This document shows, piece by piece, positions 1,074-40,251 of a stretch of 64,000 nt of DNA; the first letter of the stretch is position 1; the number at the start of each line of letters is the position of its first letter. This DNA is from Candidatus Thorarchaeota archaeon. GTDB lineage: Archaea > Asgardarchaeota > Thorarchaeia > Thorarchaeales > Thorarchaeaceae. The notes beneath the pieces are model-generated. The model worked only from the letters and a program-made list of their open reading frames with translations, had not been told where the DNA came from and did not search any database. The stretch is from contig JAEOUN010000058.1 in the NCBI GenBank assembly GCA_016839245.1, positions 58,197 to 122,196 on the forward strand. The letters are read 5' to 3'. A program made the position numbers and the translations under genes.

Positions 1074-2474
1074 TTAGAACCCTAATAACAAATTAATCAA
1101 TAATAGATAGCCAGTACCGATTGCGAGATGGATAAAGCCAAGAATTGTCCCAATCTTCACGAATTCTATAAATGGAATTGGATCATGTTCTGCCTCAGAG
1201 AGACCGATTGCCACCATGTTGGCTGGAGAGCCAAGTGGTGTGAAGATGTACCCTCCAATATTGACTGCAAAGACTAGAGCTAAGGGAATAACTGGGGAAA
1301 GGACTGCTAAATTCTCGGCAATTGGAGCAAGTACAGCTGAAACAGGTAGATTATCAAGGAATGCTGAAAGCATAGCCGGTATCCAGACTAAGAACACTGT
1401 TGCAAATGCTGGATCGTTGCCAATGACCAATCCTATGCCATCACCAATGGCATCTATTATTCCAGTTATACTGAGTGCTCCTACCAAACCAAAGAGTCCA
1501 ACAAGAAAGAAGACAGTAGGCCATCCGACCCTATTCAGGAACTCGTTAGCTCTTTCATGAGCCAGCAGAAGCAAGAATCCTGCAATGATAAGGGCAATCA
1601 TGGAAGGGACAACTTCGAATATAGGTCCTATTGCAAATCCAATTACAAGCATAACTATTGCGGCCGCAGAGATATTGAAGTCCCATCGATCCTTGATCAT
1701 GGTTGCTGGATCAATAGAAAACACTGCATCTGCTCTATGTTCTTCAGTCACACCAAACGTTGTCCCATACCATTTTAGAAGAATTGGCAGACTCACTAGA
1801 AAGAGAATGATAGAAAGTGGCATAAATACAATAAATAGAAATCCTACATTCAAACCGGTACGTCCGGCAATTACAAGATTGGGTACTGCACCTACAATAG
1901 ACGGAATTGATGAGAAATTACATACTATTGCTTCAGACACAAGGAATGGTTTGAAATCCACCTCTAAGGCTTTGCATATCTCGATTGTTAGAGGTGCTGC
2001 AATAAGCATTGTTGAAGTTGTGTCAAAAAACAAGCTGATTGCTGAAACGAAGACTAGGAATGTTATGAACAGCTGTTTATGATCTCCTTGACTTCTGGTT
2101 GCAATCCTTAGTGCGATATACTGGAACAAACCCGAAGATGCAGCAACTGATACGATAATGCTCATTGCTATAATGAAAATAATTGTCGTCCACTCTATAT
2201 GTTCAATTAAGGTGGTAAATTCCACGCCCCCTTGGATTCCCATCTCGAATGCAACAAATAGAACTACACCAGCTATAGCTACACCCAATAGAGACATAGC
2301 AGTTCGATTTATTTTCTCTGTAGAGATGAGTACATATGTACCAACAAAAACAACGATGATTGCTCCGGGTACATTATGATAGATTACTGTCATTACAAGT
2401 GCAACAACAATCATGATTACAGAACAAACGGTTGCTATTACTTCCCATCCCGGTCTATGCATCGCTGTAATCAC
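1074..2474 (-). CDS. SLC13/ArsB-NhaD-type ion permease
   Basis: This 466-residue polytopic membrane protein has about 11 to 12 hydrophobic segments. Hallmarks are TEKINRTAMS near residue 52, IEWTTIIFIIAMSIIVS, and the pseudo-symmetric VPNLVIAGRTG and GSPANMVAIGLS re-entrant-loop motifs. These are typical of the ArsB/NhaD/SLC13 ion transporter superfamily. It is a full-length paralogue of the truncated permease at 1-1010, same strand and 63 bp upstream of it, so the two probably arose by tandem duplication. Candidates are a Na+/H+ antiporter, an arsenite pump or a dicarboxylate carrier. No arsR or arsA neighbour is seen, which weakens the arsenic reading. Confidence 0.82.
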   Translation of the reverse strand: MITAMHRPGWEVIATVCSVIMIVVALVMTVIYHNVPGAIIVVFVGTYVLISTEKINRTAMSLLGVAIAGVVLFVAFEMGIQGGVEFTTLIEHIEWTTIIFIIAMSIIVSVAASSGLFQYIALRIATRSQGDHKQLFITFLVFVSAISLFFDTTSTMLIAAPLTIEICKALEVDFKPFLVSEAIVCNFSSIPSIVGAVPNLVIAGRTGLNVGFLFIVFMPLSIILFLVSLPILLKWYGTTFGVTEEHRADAVFSIDPATMIKDRWDFNISAAAIVMLVIGFAIGPIFEVVPSMIALIIAGFLLLLAHERANEFLNRVGWPTVFFLVGLFGLVGALSITGIIDAIGDGIGLVIGNDPAFATVFLVWIPAMLSAFLDNLPVSAVLAPIAENLAVLSPVIPLALVFAVNIGGYIFTPLGSPANMVAIGLSEAEHDPIPFIEFVKIGTILGFIHLAIGTGYLLLINLLLGF

Positions 2475-9660: not shown

Positions 9661-9732
9661 ATATTGCACCTTTCCAGAGTGAGGATTGAACCGACGCTGC
9701 CGGTTGCTATTCTGTTAAGACTCTTTCCATTA

Positions 9733-9750
9733 TTCGGATATTTATTTGGT
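9733..9750 (-). promoter_or_regulatory. Candidate TATA region for hydBGDA operon 1
   Basis: On the minus strand the segment reads CCAAATAAATATCC, an A/T box that would place a start site about 25 nt downstream near 9712 and a leader of about 50 nt before ATG 9660. It is assigned by position and composition only. Confidence 0.3.
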
Positions 9751-9849
9751 ATGATTATGATACAAATAGTGGAGAATCAATCAAAATAGAACGGCAAGAT
9801 TTGCCATGTATATCTCACTATTGGAAGGTCTTCCCTCTTTCTCTGAGCT

Positions 9850-9858
9850 CTTATATGT
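9850..9858 (+). promoter_or_regulatory. Candidate TATA box for the 111-residue gene
   Basis: CTTATATGT lies about 50 nt before ATG 9905, which suits an archaeal TATA box with a short leader. The 9661-9904 stretch otherwise holds only the divergent leaders of hydB and this gene; no RNA gene could be folded in it. Confidence 0.3.
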
Positions 9859-9904
9859 CTGGTACTATTACAATATTGATGAAATATCTGTTGAGGTATG
9901 ATAA

Positions 9905-10240
9905 ATGGACACGAATCAAAGCACGCTAGAATTTGGGAAAGATTGGAATGGAATGTTAAACTTTCTTGCTGAATCTGAGAGCCTTGTTGATATCTATCTG
10001 TGTTCTAGTGCATATGGTCGCGCAGATGATCTTGATGAGATGGTTGCAGAAACACATGGCGTTCGTATAATCTATGTTGGGGAAGACTACTTCATTGTTG
10101 GTCCCAGAAGACCCGTGCATTCAAGCATAATCCCGATGGGTTGGATTTCAATGATTAGAATCCATAAGGATAGTGAGCATACAAATATGATGAGTCTTGT
10201 AGAATCTGACGATTTTGAAGGAGCAGAATTAGAGACCTGA
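9905..10240 (+). CDS. Hypothetical protein, 111 aa
   Basis: This small acidic soluble protein is not recognised. Predicted secondary structure alternates helix and strand: a helix FGKDWNGMLNFLAESES, then DIYLCSSAYG, a helix DDLDEMVAETHG, then strands VRIIYVGEDYFIVGPRRPV and WISMIRIHKD. The Arg-Pro-rich hairpin and the C-terminal acidic tail give no known motif. It is monocistronic, 244 bp from the divergent hydB. Credible as a gene by its codon pattern and clean start, but without assigned function. Confidence 0.6.
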   Translation: MDTNQSTLEFGKDWNGMLNFLAESESLVDIYLCSSAYGRADDLDEMVAETHGVRIIYVGEDYFIVGPRRPVHSSIIPMGWISMIRIHKDSEHTNMMSLVESDDFEGAELET

Positions 10241-10353
10241 AGACTTCAGATAGATGAAGAACACCGATTTTCTTCTATCATTCGATGAGTACAAGTTATA
10301 ACTAGTACGTCAATTTATATTGTCAGAAAATGAAAAATGTTTGAGATAGGATT

Positions 10354-10881
10354 ATGCCATTTACTCCTTTCCATTTTGGACCTGCACTATTAATTGGAAT
10401 GGTGCTTCTTTCATTAGTTGATATCTCTACCCTCTTCATCGCTAGTGTGATTCTTGATCTAGAACCACTTGTAGTAATGCTGTTTAATCTTCCATTTCCT
10501 CTTCATGGCATCTTACATACATATCTGGCTGCATTCATTGTAGCCATTTCTCTCGCTATTGTGCTCTGGCCATTTCGTGGTGTTCTCAATGCAATTGTTT
10601 CTGGGTTTGGTGTTCAACAAGAGTCAACTTTTCGTAGTCTTCTGCTTGCGAGTCTACTCGGTACATTTTCTCATATCTTCCTGGATTCGTTTCTTTATGC
10701 AGAGATGAATCCATTCTATCCCCTCCTAGGAAATCCATATTTTAATCTCATTCCGAGTCAAGTCATCTACAATCTGTGTATATTCTCTGGTTTCCTCGGT
10801 CTTTTGGTCTATGTGGTTTACCTTCTCAATAAATATTTCAAATCCAAGAACGTTAAATTATCACAGAACGATCTTTGGTAA
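10354..10881 (+). CDS. Membrane-bound metal-dependent hydrolase-like protein (YdjM/DUF4184-like)
   Basis: This 175-residue polytopic membrane protein opens with MPFTPFHFGPALLIG. The opening matches the start of the COG1988/DUF4184-type membrane hydrolases, where His, Asp and Glu form a metal site. Candidate ligands are H7, D and E in ILDLEP, the two His of LHGILHTY, and H and D of FSHIFLDS. About four transmembrane helices are visible. The natural substrate of the family is unclear. A second protein of the same type lies at 20341-20937. Neighbours give no pathway. Confidence 0.7.
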   Translation: MPFTPFHFGPALLIGMVLLSLVDISTLFIASVILDLEPLVVMLFNLPFPLHGILHTYLAAFIVAISLAIVLWPFRGVLNAIVSGFGVQQESTFRSLLLASLLGTFSHIFLDSFLYAEMNPFYPLLGNPYFNLIPSQVIYNLCIFSGFLGLLVYVVYLLNKYFKSKNVKLSQNDLW

Positions 10882-33885: not shown

Positions 33886-34443
33886 TTAGACGTGTGACTC
33901 GAGAGCATCTTTTCCAGCTTTCATACCAAGCTCTAATGCGAGCATATTGCTCTTAATGAATCGGGGCCAACGTTCCTCTATTCTTGCTTTGAGACCTTCA
34001 ACAGAGAGAACTTTCGTAATGACTGTGAATGCGCCTAACATGACGACATTTGTTGCTTGTTTATTACCTACCTCTTTATCCGCAATTCTGGTAGCTGGTA
34101 TTTTGTATACTTTGACACCTTTGGGAAGTTCACCTTCAATTTCAACTAGGTCCTCGTCGATTATAAGGACTCCATTTTCTTTAAGTCCATGAATATACTC
34201 AAGATATGCGGCTCTGCTTAAAACAACAAAGACATCTGGTTGAAGCACTTTTGGATAATCAATCTCTTCGTCAGAGATAACGATCTCACTCTTGCTAGCA
34301 CCACCTCGTGCCTCCGGACCATACGACTGGGTCTGGACAACGAATTTGTTATCATAGAGTGAGGCTGTCTCTGCCACTACTATCGCCATGGTCACAACGC
34401 CTTGACCACCAAACCCTCCAATTCGAACTTCGTATCTACTCAC
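33886..34443 (-). CDS. korC: 2-oxoacid:ferredoxin oxidoreductase gamma subunit (KorC)
   Basis: This 185-residue gamma subunit of the 2-oxoacid:ferredoxin oxidoreductase family shows the N-terminal VRIGGFGGQGVVTMA motif and SYGPEARGGASKSEIVIS. GTG 34443 (MSRYEVRIGG) was chosen since AGGTG lies 6 nt upstream, and it overlaps the beta-subunit stop by 8 nt. A GTG at 34452 is the alternative. It works with the beta subunit upstream and with alpha and delta encoded 3.3 kb away at 38696-40183. Confidence 0.9.
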   Translation of the reverse strand: MSRYEVRIGGFGGQGVVTMAIVVAETASLYDNKFVVQTQSYGPEARGGASKSEIVISDEEIDYPKVLQPDVFVVLSRAAYLEYIHGLKENGVLIIDEDLVEIEGELPKGVKVYKIPATRIADKEVGNKQATNVVMLGAFTVITKVLSVEGLKARIEERWPRFIKSNMLALELGMKAGKDALESHV

Positions 34444-35290
34444 TGGAAACACCTGTTACTCTCTTCTGCATCTCTCGAAGCACATCGGTATATTCTGGTT
34501 TCTCAATATCTAAAAATTCTCCACAGACAATTCTCGAAGCATAATCGAGTTCTGCTTCATGAGGTGGCAGTCCATTTTGAATCTCAGATACTTCAAGGAG
34601 GTGCTTGTGCATTGCAAGACCATCACCTAATCGATTCATCCTACCATATGCAGTAGGACATGCACCAATGATCTCGATGAAGGAGAATCCATTCTTCTTT
34701 ATTCCCTTCTCAATTGATTTTGTTGCACGTCTTGCCTGAATTGCTGTCCATCTAGCTACAAATGTCGCTCCAGATGAGGCGGCTAATTTGACTAGGTTGA
34801 AGGGATGTTCGATATTCCCTACCGGTGGTGGACTGGTCTGTGAATATCTCTCATGTTCAGTAGTAGGTCCAAACTGCCCACCCGTCATACCATAGTTGAA
34901 GTTGTTGACGCAAACTACTGTAATATCGATATTTCTTCTTGCTGCATGAATTAGATGGTTCCCGCCTATAGCGGCAATATCACCATCACCACTTACTACA
35001 ATGACTTCAAGTTCAGGATTGGCAATCTTTACGCCCTCAGCAAATGCAATTGCTCTTCCATGGGTTGTGTGATAAGTCCCAGTCTTGAAATATCCCGATG
35101 TACGTCCAGTGCAACCAATTCCTGAGATAATGACAGTCTTCATGAAATCGATCTTTAGGTTGTCTATTGCTCGTGCAACCATTCCACTAACTATTCCAAC
35201 CGAACAGCCTGGACAGTATATCCACGGCTGACGATCCTCTCTGATGTATTTGGCCATTGGATGCTTCAAGACGAGTGCGCTTTCTGTCAT
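34436..35290 (-). CDS. korB: 2-oxoacid:ferredoxin oxidoreductase beta subunit (KorB)
   Basis: This 284-residue subunit binds thiamine diphosphate and an Fe-S cluster. CPGCSVGIVSGMV and SGIGCTGRTSGYF supply cluster cysteines, VVSGDGDIAAIGGNHLIHA is the ThDP/Mg site and NNFNYGMTGGQ follows. The PEHERYSQTSPP-like region fits 2-oxoglutarate-type enzymes (Kor) more than pyruvate-type, which is an inference. ATG 35290. It is first of a korB-korC pair whose usual upstream gene korA is not adjacent. Confidence 0.92.
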   Translation of the reverse strand: MTESALVLKHPMAKYIREDRQPWIYCPGCSVGIVSGMVARAIDNLKIDFMKTVIISGIGCTGRTSGYFKTGTYHTTHGRAIAFAEGVKIANPELEVIVVSGDGDIAAIGGNHLIHAARRNIDITVVCVNNFNYGMTGGQFGPTTEHERYSQTSPPPVGNIEHPFNLVKLAASSGATFVARWTAIQARRATKSIEKGIKKNGFSFIEIIGACPTAYGRMNRLGDGLAMHKHLLEVSEIQNGLPPHEAELDYASRIVCGEFLDIEKPEYTDVLREMQKRVTGVSSE

Positions 35291-35471: not shown

Positions 35472-37055
35472 ATGGCTGGTCATGTTATTGAAGCAATTCT
35501 AATCACCGACAAGAATAGTAATCCTCGGTTCTACATGCAGCTTGATCCAAGAGCCTTTGGTATGGACCCAATCCTTGCATCAAGTTTCTTTACAGCTATT
35601 GATATGTTCTCAAAAGAAGTATTTCAACAGAGTGCCCCTGTGTTCCATGTTGATTATGGAGCTCACATATTCACTGTATTGAATGGTGAGTCCGCACATA
35701 TGATTGCTGTGGGTGTCCAGAGGCTCAATACTGAGATTATTCACATCCTTGACTCGCTTCTGACGGAATTTGAAGAGAAATGGTTACCAACTACTGAAAT
35801 GCTTGATGCTGGTGCCCCCTTTGTCGATGCATACCTTGAACCTTTTGGCGAGAGTATCATGATGAAGCTCTCCTTTGATAATCTTCCAGATTCTTGGGTA
35901 CCATATTTCACAGTCGATCCAAATGCTATAATCACTAAAAGTGGGACTCTAATCCCTATAATAAATGGATCACGAAATATGAAGGAGATTCTTGAAGTAA
36001 GTGGCTTATCAAAGAGAGACCTCTATCTTGAGATCTCCAAATTATGGGCACATAGAGTCATCCGATTTCGAAATACGCTCAGCTTTAATGATTATGTAGA
36101 TACACGAACCGACTTCTTCAAGTATGTACAAGCTACATCAAGAGAGATAGAATCCTTACGAAGTGTCCATCCTGAGATGATATCAATGATTCCTCACATT
36201 GTAGGATTGATGAATGGACGACGAAGTGTTCGTGAATTATTGGTCTTGCTTGGAACATCATATGATGAGCGTGAGATACTGCGTGTATTGGATTACTTGC
36301 TTGAAAACAGCGTTATAGAAGCACTGACCCCAGAGAAACGACGAATACTTTTGGTGAAAGAGGTTCTTGCGATGTGTTTGAACATCGCTGAGGAATATTA
36401 TCATCATGAAGCAACGTCAAAAGCTCTCATTTCTGCAATGAAGGCTTGTGATGCGCCAGAGGTGATTAGCCAATTCATATTGACAGATGGTCGATGGGGG
36501 ATCGATTTTGGCGTTAAGGTGCTCGAAGGCCTAAACAACCGGAGATTGATGCTCATTTTTGGCGAGTGGATGAAGATACTGGCTCAATTTTCAGCATTAC
36601 TTGATCCATCAAATCTTGAGTCCTTTATCAGGGCATTAATTTTTGCATTTTCAAATAACATAGTGAATCATTTTACTCCATTTGATTTTCGCGGTCTTGA
36701 AGAGTTTTCATTTTGGCTTGAACAGCTAAGCAGGAGTGGTTTCTCTCAGGTCAAGACTATCAAGACGGGGTCTCTGAAACCGTCAGGGGAAAATCCTGCT
36801 GAAGAGATGATCTTCACTTTGGTCACAAGAGGTCAAGCAATCTACGGAACGGAACGTATCACAAGAATCTGCGCGGCAGCTAACATTCCTTTGATGGATA
36901 TTCCTCCGGATTACTGGGTAGATTGGCAGAAGAACCAAAGTCTACAACGCTTAATGATTGAATATTCAAAACTTGGAGCAGCTGCAAAATTCACATTACT
37001 GCTCTTATCTACGCGTTTGGGACTGACTTTGCCACAATCTATTGAATTTACTTGA
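35472..37055 (+). CDS. Probable longin/roadblock-like sensor protein with winged-helix-like repeats
   Basis: This protein has about 527 residues from ATG 35472, chosen because GGTGG precedes it; the frame is open from 35343 but the extra 43 residues look like leader DNA. The N-terminal ~110 residues alternate strands and helices (EAILITDKNSNPRFYMQLDP, then FHVDYGAHIFTVLNG and IIHILDSLLTEFEEKW) in the manner of longin or roadblock folds. Two wHTH-like repeats follow (NGSRNMKEILEVSGLSKRDL; NGRRSVRELLVLLGTSYDER). The rest is helical. A Rab/Ras-like GTPase lies 82 bp downstream, suggesting the pair work together. The fold assignment is inference. Confidence 0.6.
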   Translation: MAGHVIEAILITDKNSNPRFYMQLDPRAFGMDPILASSFFTAIDMFSKEVFQQSAPVFHVDYGAHIFTVLNGESAHMIAVGVQRLNTEIIHILDSLLTEFEEKWLPTTEMLDAGAPFVDAYLEPFGESIMMKLSFDNLPDSWVPYFTVDPNAIITKSGTLIPIINGSRNMKEILEVSGLSKRDLYLEISKLWAHRVIRFRNTLSFNDYVDTRTDFFKYVQATSREIESLRSVHPEMISMIPHIVGLMNGRRSVRELLVLLGTSYDEREILRVLDYLLENSVIEALTPEKRRILLVKEVLAMCLNIAEEYYHHEATSKALISAMKACDAPEVISQFILTDGRWGIDFGVKVLEGLNNRRLMLIFGEWMKILAQFSALLDPSNLESFIRALIFAFSNNIVNHFTPFDFRGLEEFSFWLEQLSRSGFSQVKTIKTGSLKPSGENPAEEMIFTLVTRGQAIYGTERITRICAAANIPLMDIPPDYWVDWQKNQSLQRLMIEYSKLGAAAKFTLLLLSTRLGLTLPQSIEFT

Positions 37056-37137
37056 TTTGTGCATTTTAATTGATAATAATAATTGTTATCTGATAGCGAG
37101 CATTAATGAATACTGTAAATCAATAGGATGAATTTGG

Positions 37138-37653
37138 ATGAGCCCAACCTATCTTCTAAAAGTCGTTACCGTCGGAGCAGCATCAGTTGGGAAGACCAGC
37201 ATCATTATTCGATATTCAACAGGAGTCTTTAGAGAACATTATTCTCCAACTCTCGGAACCGGATTTGCATACAAGAAGCTACAGCTTGGAAACAATTTCA
37301 TTAACCTCCAAATATGGGATTTGGGGTCACAGGACTTTCTAGAGAGAGTACGGGCAAATTACTATATTGGCACTCAAGGGGTCATCTTCATGTATGATGT
37401 TACCTCTTGGGAGTCGTTTCATGCAGTAAAAGATTGGAAGAATGAAGTTGATCGACATGTTGAAGATTATAAGTCATTACTTGTCGCAAATAAAATTGAC
37501 CTAGTCGACGAGAGAGTGATTTCAACTGAGGAAGGCGAGAATCTTGCAAGAGAATATGGAATGGACTATATTGAGGTATCTGTTCTTCTAGATAATAATG
37601 TGCACAGAGCTTTTGAGATGATTGCTCAAAGTATTGGTGCTGATATGTTTTAG
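37138..37653 (+). CDS. Rab/Ras-like small GTPase with atypical switch II
   Basis: This 171-residue single-domain GTPase shows the P-loop GAASVGKTS (G13-S21), switch I with YSPTLGTGF (Thr38), switch II WDLGSQDF in place of WDxAGQE, NKID near residue 121 and a degenerate G5 EVSVLL. At the DxxG position the invariant Gly is Ser64, while Gln65 is kept. There is no C-terminal Cys for prenylation. Eukaryote-like GTPases of this kind are abundant in Asgard archaea. It lies downstream of the longin-like gene, same strand, and converges with the epimerase 2 bp away. Confidence 0.9.
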   Translation: MSPTYLLKVVTVGAASVGKTSIIIRYSTGVFREHYSPTLGTGFAYKKLQLGNNFINLQIWDLGSQDFLERVRANYYIGTQGVIFMYDVTSWESFHAVKDWKNEVDRHVEDYKSLLVANKIDLVDERVISTEEGENLAREYGMDYIEVSVLLDNNVHRAFEMIAQSIGADMF

Positions 37654-37655
37654 AC

Positions 37656-38624
37656 TCATTTTTCTGTGTAATATGGTGATACTGCAAGAATTCGTTTTCG
37701 TGCTTGAGATTTGAATAGCTTGGCAGCATATCGCTTCACTCCAATTTGCTTCTTTATCTCCTCGATATACTCATCAAATGTCCGTGTCTGAAATTGGAGC
37801 AATCGTTGAGACTCCTCAGTATCAAGCCAATCTGTGTAGTAATATTCCTCTGGTTTCTTAGCAACTCTAAATGCTGAGTCTGGCAACATACCTATTCCCA
37901 TTGACTCCATAAACTTCGAAATGAATTCCCGTTGAAGCATTTGAGCTGATTTTCCTCCACCTATAAGAAGCGTCTTTCCAATTGTATCTGCTTCAATTGC
38001 ATTGGCACAAGCTAATCCCACATCTCTTGAATGCACAAATTCGATACGTTGATCTAGAGGAATTTCAAAGAGCATTGGATCCATGTCTAATCCTATATTC
38101 AGTGGTGGAGCTGCAGCAAATCGTAAGATGGTCCAGGGAAGTGAACTCTCTCTTATCATGCTCTCGCATGCAATTTTGGTTTCAGTATAGACATCTGTGG
38201 CAACGAGTGGATCGTCTGCCTTTCTCGGAGGATCCAAATGCATCGTAGGTCCAAATGTTGAAACGGATCCCGCAAAAATCAACTTAGGTCTTATTTCCAG
38301 CTTTTCTGCAACGTTGATGATGTTTCTTGTTCCATCAATGTTTATTGAACGAGCAAGTTCGGGTTTCTTCTCAGATAAGGGAGGGATAATTCCTGCAAGG
38401 TGTATAATGCAACTCACATCTTGTACTGCAACCTCGACAAGGCCCTTATCTAAAATATCTCCCCAGATGACCTCAAAGTTGCCCTGTTTACTTAATCGTA
38501 TGTTTGTTTTCTCATTATTATCTGTATGAAGATCAAAACATCTGATTTCATATCCTCTGCCAAAAAGTGCCAATAAAGTACTCTCACCTATGTTTCCAAA
38601 GGCTCCTGTCAGTAGAACTTTCAT
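37656..38624 (-). CDS. NAD-dependent epimerase/dehydratase (extended SDR)
   Basis: This 322-residue extended short-chain dehydrogenase has the Rossmann motif TGAFGNIGE directly after the start and IHLAGIIPPLSEK. SINIDGTRNIINVAEKL and the catalytic region (Ser in FAGSVSTFG, Tyr and Lys in YTETKIACE) follow. It probably acts on a nucleotide sugar or similar substrate. ATG 38624 (MKVLLTGAFG) places the glycine motif at the canonical N-terminus; longer in-frame starts to 38666 are unlikely. It is co-directional with korA, 71 bp downstream of it, so it may ride on the korDA transcript. Confidence 0.85.
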   Translation of the reverse strand: MKVLLTGAFGNIGESTLLALFGRGYEIRCFDLHTDNNEKTNIRLSKQGNFEVIWGDILDKGLVEVAVQDVSCIIHLAGIIPPLSEKKPELARSINIDGTRNIINVAEKLEIRPKLIFAGSVSTFGPTMHLDPPRKADDPLVATDVYTETKIACESMIRESSLPWTILRFAAAPPLNIGLDMDPMLFEIPLDQRIEFVHSRDVGLACANAIEADTIGKTLLIGGGKSAQMLQREFISKFMESMGIGMLPDSAFRVAKKPEEYYYTDWLDTEESQRLLQFQTRTFDEYIEEIKKQIGVKRYAAKLFKSQARKRILAVSPYYTEK

Positions 38625-38695
38625 AACCTCTATAGTGTCAACAGAAGCCTTAACTCTTTGCTCCAAGAGATTTTAGAATTGAGATTTCAGGAATG

Positions 38696-39832
38696 TTAAA
38701 TTGAGTTTACTTCTCTGATTTTGGTGAGAATTTCATTAGGCAACTGGGGCATTCCAGCGGGTTTTGTCATGAGATGCACAGGTGTCGGTGCAGCTGCAGA
38801 TCTCACCATATGATAGACTTGGCCAAGATTTTGTTCTGCAACAATAATATGCTCCACTTCGGATGCTAACTGTGCTACCTGCTTTTCTGGGAATGGCCAT
38901 ACTGTCTTAAGTCTGAGTAGTCCTGCTTTGATACCCTCTGCTTGAGCATCTTTGATTGCTCTCTTAGCACTTCTTGACGGAGTTCCATACGCAATTACTC
39001 CAATTTTCGCATCATCAAGAAAGAAACGTTCAACGTCAATTATCTTATCTGAATTATTCAAAATTTTATTGTTCAACCGAGTAATGAGTTCAATCTGTAC
39101 GTCTTCGTTATCACTTGGGTAACCTCTTTCGTCATGAGTCAATCCCGTTGCATAGAATTGGTACTTTGACCCGAATAGAGCCATGGGTGGTACAAGGTCC
39201 TTATCTGCTTTGAAAGGCAAGTATTCATCGGGATTACCTGTTGGCATCTTTCTATACTCAAGTTTGAGATTTTTTTCGTCAGGGATTACAAGTCGTTCTC
39301 TCATATGACCAACTGTTTCATCTGCAAGCACAAATACTGGGGTACGATATTTCTCTGATAGATTGAATGCTTGGACTGTCTGATCAAACATCTCCTGAAC
39401 TGATGCAGGAGTCAGTGCAATAATCTGATAGTCTCCATGACTTCCCCATTTTGCCTGCATTATATCTCCCTGTTGTCCTCTTGTAGGTTGACCAGTACTT
39501 GGTCCACCTCGCATGATATTCACTAACACGAGGGGCGTTTCAGTCATGACAGCAAGACCAACTGCTTCAAGCATCAAGCTTACTCCTGGTCCGGATGTCG
39601 CTGTCATGGATTTGACTCCGGTCCAAGAAGCTCCAATTACACTAGTTATAGATGCAATTTCATCTTCATACTGAACATAGGCACCGCCAACCTGAGGCAT
39701 TCGCTGGGACATCCATTCTGCAATCTCAGTTGCTGGTGTAATAGGATACCCTCCAAAATAACGACAGCCTGCACTAAGAGCTCCTTCAGCACATGCAATA
39801 TCACCCATTGTAAACATAATGCGTTCAGGCAT
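38696..39832 (-). CDS. korA: 2-oxoacid:ferredoxin oxidoreductase alpha subunit (KorA)
   Basis: This 378-residue alpha subunit opens with the KorA-type block GDIACAEGALSAGCRYFGGYP followed by ITPATEIAEWM. TSGPGVSLMLEAVGLAVMTE and GGPSTGQPTRGQQGD complete the pyrimidine-binding and transketolase-like elements. It catalyses reversible ferredoxin-dependent decarboxylation of a 2-oxoacid, most likely 2-oxoglutarate/succinyl-CoA. ATG 39832 immediately follows the korD stop. Beta and gamma subunits are separated from it by the GTPase/longin segment. Confidence 0.93.
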   Translation of the reverse strand: MPERIMFTMGDIACAEGALSAGCRYFGGYPITPATEIAEWMSQRMPQVGGAYVQYEDEIASITSVIGASWTGVKSMTATSGPGVSLMLEAVGLAVMTETPLVLVNIMRGGPSTGQPTRGQQGDIMQAKWGSHGDYQIIALTPASVQEMFDQTVQAFNLSEKYRTPVFVLADETVGHMRERLVIPDEKNLKLEYRKMPTGNPDEYLPFKADKDLVPPMALFGSKYQFYATGLTHDERGYPSDNEDVQIELITRLNNKILNNSDKIIDVERFFLDDAKIGVIAYGTPSRSAKRAIKDAQAEGIKAGLLRLKTVWPFPEKQVAQLASEVEHIIVAEQNLGQVYHMVRSAAAPTPVHLMTKPAGMPQLPNEILTKIREVNSI

Positions 39833-40183
39833 CTAGCTAGACTCCTCCTTCTTAGCCCTCTCTGCTTCGAATTCAGGTATTACTGTTCCTTCTTGTAATG
39901 CTCCTTTCTTGTAAGCCTTCTCTGCTTCATCTCGTCCTATAAGAAAGATTGCCATGTCTGGACAGATTCTTTCACAAAACTCGCAGCTAACGCAGGCATC
40001 AATATCACATGCGGTGACAGGATGGTATCCTTTTCGATTATAAATATCAGTAAGGCAGAGCACCTTCTTTGGACAGAATTCAATACAGAGACCGCACTCT
40101 TTGCATTGTTCTTGCAGAATCACTAAGACCTTCTCTCTAGTTCTCGGGGGCTTTGGTGTGATTGGTTTTCTGACGGTTGACAT
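39833..40183 (-). CDS. korD: 2-oxoacid:ferredoxin oxidoreductase delta subunit, ferredoxin-like (KorD)
   Basis: This subunit of about 116 residues has two 4Fe-4S motifs: CKECGLCIEFCPKKVLCL and CVSCEFCERICPDMAIFL. It passes electrons to external ferredoxin. ATG 40183 (MSTVRKPITPK) has GGGTGA 8 nt upstream; GTG 40195 would overlap that site. It is first of the korD-korA pair. Confidence 0.92.
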   Translation of the reverse strand: MSTVRKPITPKPPRTREKVLVILQEQCKECGLCIEFCPKKVLCLTDIYNRKGYHPVTACDIDACVSCEFCERICPDMAIFLIGRDEAEKAYKKGALQEGTVIPEFEAERAKKEESS

Positions 40184-40251
40184 TGATTTTTTCACCCGAA
40201 TTGTATATTGAGAGTCGGTGCCTTTTAGAGCAGTATGGGAGATTTTCTGAA

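Follow-up and report, generated by a model that had tools for sequence, protein, structure and literature searches.

Can the protein that acts on a small GTPase in an Asgard archaeon be recognized from the gene that lies beside it? The question is raised by a locus in a 64,000-nucleotide stretch of a Candidatus Thorarchaeota genome (GenBank assembly GCA_016839245.1, contig JAEOUN010000058.1, positions 58,197 to 122,196 of the forward strand), hereafter called the window. In this stretch, a gene for a protein of 527 amino acids (the large protein; 35472..37055, plus strand, ATG start at 35472) is followed, after a spacer of 82 bp (37056..37137, plus strand), by the gene for a Ras/Rab-like small GTPase of 171 amino acids (37138..37653, plus strand). 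A sequence-only reading had described a longin- or roadblock-like protein beside a Rab-like GTPase, on the same strand and 82 bp apart, and this observation is confirmed. That reading missed that NPRL2 and NPRL3 share this arrangement of a longin domain and tandem winged helices. Both belong to GATOR1, a nutrient-sensing complex of eukaryotes, and act in it on Rag GTPases.

We propose, with a probability of roughly 60%, that the large protein is an archaeal relative, in fold and domain order, of the longin-tandem winged-helix core of NPRL2/NPRL3, and that it serves the GTPase encoded downstream as a dedicated partner. The computed support consists of a conserved pairing of the two genes, trees that fit duplication of the pair, a shared fold core, and a Gly-to-Ser replacement in switch II of the paired GTPase. 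The earlier interpretation is supported overall, and regulation of the GTPase by the large protein is what we infer.

Conserved pairing of the large gene and the GTPase gene

Relatives were drawn from two sets, one of 36 genome-contig loci (34 of them from Thorarchaeota) and one of 227 genomes of the phylum. In the latter, at most the six best candidates per genome were scored for the large protein and at most the 15 best for the GTPase family, and linkage was compared between 58 large-protein rows and the best 48 GTPase rows, each taken from a longer list. A GTPase was counted as linked when it lay no more than 4 kb downstream of a large gene. Large proteins scoring above 100 bits are present in 40 of the 227 genomes, where class labels were set by bit score and split state. 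Class I, the window type, has a single protein of about 527 amino acids and the GTPase. Class II has a protein of 408-435 amino acids (494 in L031 by the first start) and a separate ‘RRGQTIYG’ module protein of 109-122 amino acids, and then the GTPase. Two loci cut by contig ends (L020 and L022) received the automatic label II, but they cluster with class I in the large-protein tree and are treated as such.

Conserved adjacency in relatives had been named beforehand as a check, and the outcome is positive: a family GTPase lies within 4 kb downstream of the class I or II large gene in 42 of the 43 testable places in the 227 genomes. Two large genes of these classes at contig edges (G207:C96 and G002:C30) were excluded from the 43, as was a 36-bit large-gene fragment in G192, whose GTPase was counted. 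The sole exception is L006, a second copy in a complete chromosome. Viewed from the other gene, 43 of the 48 GTPases above 200 bits are linked, as are all 43 of those scoring at least 250 bits, one of them (in G192) to the short fragment. The five unlinked GTPases score 207-232 bits. Four were inspected (the fifth, G221:C254, is not among these sequences), and because their G3 motif reads WDLAGQ or WDMGGQ we assign them, on sequence grounds, to sister GTPases outside the paired family. An unlinked sister GTPase with WDLAGQ is also found in L128 (4765-6813), where it is followed by a gene that appears PAS-like by eye; L129 and L131 have a similar neighbour.

Among the genome-contig loci, a same-strand family GTPase lies downstream of the large gene in all except L006, which is a true exception, and L020 and L033, which terminate at or near a contig edge. 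The spacer measures 64-104 bp in the 19 class I loci whose GTPase follows immediately. In L021, from a genome labelled Lokiarchaeota, an additional gene stands between the two, followed by 61 bp; it encodes a 265-amino-acid relative of the C-terminal half of the large protein (9715-10512).

The paired GTPase

The GTPase of the window is of Ras rather than Rag type, scoring 152.2 bits against Ras versus 18.4 against Gtr1_RagA. Its G1 P-loop GAASVGKT (37174..37197, plus strand) and its G4 motif NKID are intact, and residues G13, G18, K19, T20, N118, K119 and D121 are invariant in 24 of 24 GTPases. In the G3 motif D-L-G-S-Q (37318..37332, plus strand), serine replaces the canonical glycine, which in Ras is required for the GTP-induced switch. 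The same replacement occurs in all 40 distinct family GTPases (WDLGSQ in 30, WDMGSQ in 10); six other GTPases in the loci carry DxAGQ or DLGGQ. Judged by these motifs, serine at G3 is the signature of the paired family. No cysteine lies near the C-terminus of the window protein (SIGADMF), and four of the 40 family members, which end in ICQSLF or ICESFP, have one among their final eight residues. Prenylation-type endings (CC, CxC or CAAX) are absent from the family C-termini listed.

Classes of large proteins and probable duplication of the pair

In the GTPase tree, a branch (90/100; present in 88% of bootstrap trees) separates class II from the remaining sequences, and in the large-protein tree, a quick tree, class II forms a group at 93; both fall short of the 95 mark. 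Our reading is that the pair was duplicated as a unit. Some class II loci carry one more gene, apparently with a signal peptide, which separates the GTPase from the small module gene (L027 9705-10967, L026 9039-10406, L030 5256-6515); the one in L027 belongs to the beta-lactamase family (Pfam 1.5e-24).

In those class II and III operons that were read, the C-terminal module has a gene of its own, coding for 104-136 amino acids. Class III has a large protein of 410-423 amino acids, accompanied in 12 of 15 tree loci by an ODP-family metallo-beta-lactamase gene and a small module protein. The exceptions are L116 and L126, both very divergent and lacking an ODP gene in the available DNA, and L119, which ends at a contig edge. 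Two ODP genes that were tested match Pfam ODP at 5.3e-51 and 1.2e-53. The ODP-family gene adjoins a small ‘RGLGIYG’ module gene in L111 (4986-5717) and in 14 similar cases in L107-L123, and together they form a conserved operon; a class III large protein or fragment is present in 13 of these 15 loci, and the other two (L121 and L122) lie near contig ends. The divergent class III large protein of L116 (3518-6308) has generic Ras-like GTPases on the opposite strand on both sides.

Similarity to NPRL2 and NPRL3

The model of the large protein opens with a longin domain (residues 6-111; 35487..35804, plus strand) composed of strands 6-13 and 18-23, helix 33-50, strands 57-61, 66-71 and 75-81, and helix 87-111. 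The sequence-only reading had left the fold as ‘longin or roadblock’. The first choice holds, with longin similarity recovered in fold searches and a helix that follows two strands; the second does not, as the model begins with strand 6-13 and lacks the helix before the first strand that marks roadblock proteins. MglB chains also appear among the fold-search matches. As in NPRL2/NPRL3, the N-terminal longin domain is followed directly by tandem winged helices. The first (residues 143-211; 35898..36104, plus strand) contains INGSRNMKEI, which aligns to IDGFRHIQKI of NPRL2, and the second (residues 213-285; 36108..36326, plus strand) contains NGRRSVRELL. Behind them lie a helical region with a beta-hairpin (residues 287-420; 36330..36731, plus strand) and a C-terminal helical module with TRGQAIYG (residues 440-516; 36789..37019, plus strand). 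Just after the second winged helix, the 84 sequences show invariant E288 and R291 and almost invariant K289 and R290.

When the longin domain is cut off, the first 12 Foldseek ranks all belong to GATOR1/SEA chains, well separated from the remaining matches, and both winged helices are aligned in order; these alignments end at residue 287, and residues 287-527 find no clear match. A family profile searched against PDB sequences has NPRL2 as its best match (E 0.0052, residues 143-229 on 174-265). Profile-profile comparison by hhalign with 14 vertebrate NPRL2 sequences gives a probability of 65.9% and a score of 44.2 over both winged helices, compared with a maximum of 23.8 among decoys (one reversed, 30 column-shuffled and 30 single-sequence). 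Weak Pfam matches across 84 members are to PqqD in 26 (best 0.0012), HTH_NPRL3 in 15 (best 2e-4) and NPR2 in three (best 0.0011), and in ten members scanned singly they lie inside the two winged helices. The 25 families listed, of 33, do not include PF03666 (NPR3), and no search aimed at NPR3 was made. Although the similarity of each single domain is generic, the order and joint extent of the winged helices point to NPRL2/NPRL3.

Several results weigh against the proposal. Whole-model TM-scores to the matched known chains are low (0.20-0.28), so the structural agreement shown is local. The longin part alone is no nearer to NPRL2 than to TRAPP or Sec22b in the fold search, and generic winged-helix families such as PqqD match single domains about equally well. 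The large protein reaches no Pfam or NCBIfam family at cut-off: the best values among the 84 members are 18.3 bits for NPR2 (cut-off 27.5, exceeded in none of the 227 genomes) and 21.7 bits for HTH_NPRL3 (cut-off 27.2). The control set of the profile-profile comparison contained no winged-helix family, and vertebrate NPRL2 searched against the 227 genomes gives a single chance-level match (E 0.086). No arginine is invariant within residues 1-135 of the 84 sequences. With regard to the pairing, the class I copy L006 lacks a family GTPase, as does every class III locus examined.

One competing explanation is that an Asgard longin-winged-helix family gained its second winged helix independently and has no special kinship with NPRL2/NPRL3. 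We place this at somewhat below even odds, and it is compatible with the partner account of the pair. The generic winged-helix motifs and the unspecific longin domain favour it, as do proteins of about 250 amino acids elsewhere in the phylum that have a longin and a single winged helix and also match NPR2 weakly. It is opposed by the separation of the GATOR1/SEA chains from all other Foldseek matches, with both winged helices in order, and by an hhalign match that covers both. The shorter proteins include a 249-amino-acid family in L070, L072, L074 and L076 (about 1500-2270, minus strand), in which the longin and single winged helix are assigned by eye and the weak NPR2 match falls at the same motif. 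Tandem proteins of 291 and 275 amino acids in L133 (2383-4088) are weakly like the profile of the large protein and lie near a gene that appears roadblock-like by eye.

Possible modes of action

By analogy with MglB, TRAPP, Mon1-Ccz1 and GATOR1, the longin domains may dimerize, and the dimer would bind the switch face of the GTPase. The large protein would then control the nucleotide state of its neighbour without a family-wide finger of the NPRL2 type. NPRL2 is described in passages of two papers as providing a catalytic arginine, Arg78, from a longin loop (PMC8534245, PMC9646525), and because no longin arginine is invariant this mechanism cannot be extended to the family as a whole. Position 27 is arginine in 41 of 62 class I rows listed and in four of 21 class II rows, and otherwise mostly lysine; position 65 is arginine in 42 of 63 class I rows (histidine in the window) and in 21 of 21 class II rows; and R126 occurs in class II only (21 of 21). 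These patterns leave room for an arginine finger within class II.

We lean slightly towards a platform of the GTPase-activating protein (GAP) type that lacks its own arginine finger, about even with a guanine nucleotide exchange factor (GEF). A passage on longin/roadblock platforms, which tells against this lean, describes them as mainly GEFs, occasionally GAPs, and in some cases without a GTPase role (PMC10933270); another counts GATOR1 and FLCN/FNIP among the GAPs and Mon1-Ccz1 and TRAPP-II among the GEFs (PMC9481161). Alternatively, the large protein could read the GTPase in its GTP-bound form as an effector or scaffold, leave its nucleotide state unchanged and produce an output through the winged helices. 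The missing family-wide arginine, the suitability of winged helices and an added C-terminal module for an adaptor, and class III proteins that work without a neighbouring family GTPase all fit such a role. We nevertheless consider it unlikely, given that the GTPase-binding platforms in the same two sources are described as GEFs or GAPs and that the G3 change suggests a GTPase that needs a partner to cycle.

If the large protein acts on nucleotide state, an input may reach it through its winged helices and its C-terminal module. This input is possibly redox or oxygen, because the place taken by the GTPase in classes I and II is mostly occupied by an ODP-family gene in class III; the link is indirect, which counts against it.

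Genomic setting of the pair

In the window, the pair is accompanied by an epimerase-like gene (37656-38666), and these three genes split a 2-oxoacid:ferredoxin oxidoreductase cluster into halves on the minus strand (33886-35290 and 38696-40195), one half comprising POR and TPP genes and the other POR_N and ferredoxin, with complex I-like genes nearby. This setting is common, at least in part, to seven of the 20 class I loci whose DNA includes the GTPase, which are the loci with wider synteny to the window (L001-L005, L018 and L019). Nine others have only the pair in common with window genes (in seven of these nine, the DNA on one or both sides is shorter than 2 kb), L010 adds one match of 25% identity, and three share other window genes. 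The shared synteny might suggest that the adjacency is nothing but inherited gene order without a functional link, which we regard as very improbable in view of the nine loci that keep only the pair (even with the short DNA of seven), the varied surroundings of class II pairs, some with extra genes between, and a GSQ change that tracks linkage, all 43 family members found being linked.

Relation to known systems and implications

The likeness to NPRL2/NPRL3 (Npr2/Npr3) of GATOR1/SEACIT comprises the N-terminal longin domain, tandem winged helices in the same order, an aligned structure and weak profile similarity. Npr2/Npr3 are described in one passage as a longin domain followed by a triad of tandem winged helix-turn-helix domains, in a fusion suggested to arise in the eukaryotic stem (PMC3521125). 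The Thorarchaeal protein differs in lacking a family-wide longin arginine and in remaining below Pfam cut-offs, and it appears to have a helical region and C-terminal module in place of the third such domain. Its partner is also not Rag-like, being a Ras/Rab-like GTPase of 171 amino acids without an added domain. Rag GTPases carry a C-terminal roadblock domain. MglA/MglB likewise combine a small GTPase with a protein of a related platform fold, but MglB is a roadblock protein, unlike the longin order and far larger architecture found here.

The claim of an undescribed signalling pair survives in part. We found no description of the pair in open-licence literature (titles and abstract openings, among the matches listed). 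However, a domain-level link to NPRL2 is already in print, because an ‘NPRL2-like longin domain’ is listed among Asgard families annotated by asCOG (PMC9834061); the passage, compared by name alone, names the longin only, with no winged-helix core and no GTPase partner. Asgard Rab-like GTPases, longins and roadblocks as treated in passages of Tran et al. 2024 (PMC10933270) belong to the same toolbox; those passages credit Lokiarchaea alone with 37 Rab-like proteins and describe genome layout as a difficult basis for assigning GAPs and GEFs to small GTPases. What differs here is that the two genes are linked in 42 of the 43 class I/II cases open to test.

A broader account can be offered tentatively, with the odds against it as a whole. 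The longin-tandem winged-helix fusion would have existed already in Asgard archaea, and units of one GTPase and one regulator would be extant relatives of the form ancestral to the GATOR1-Rag nutrient switch. The Gly-to-Ser change would mark partner-dependent GTPases, and the older input would have been oxygen or redox, as the ODP operons suggest. Independently of this account, genome layout allows an archaeal GTPase to be assigned to a probable regulator, with a motif that marks the partner GTPase. If the kinship with NPRL2/NPRL3 is true, two archaeal proteins would make it possible to test directly how the eukaryotic GATOR1 GAP core arose.
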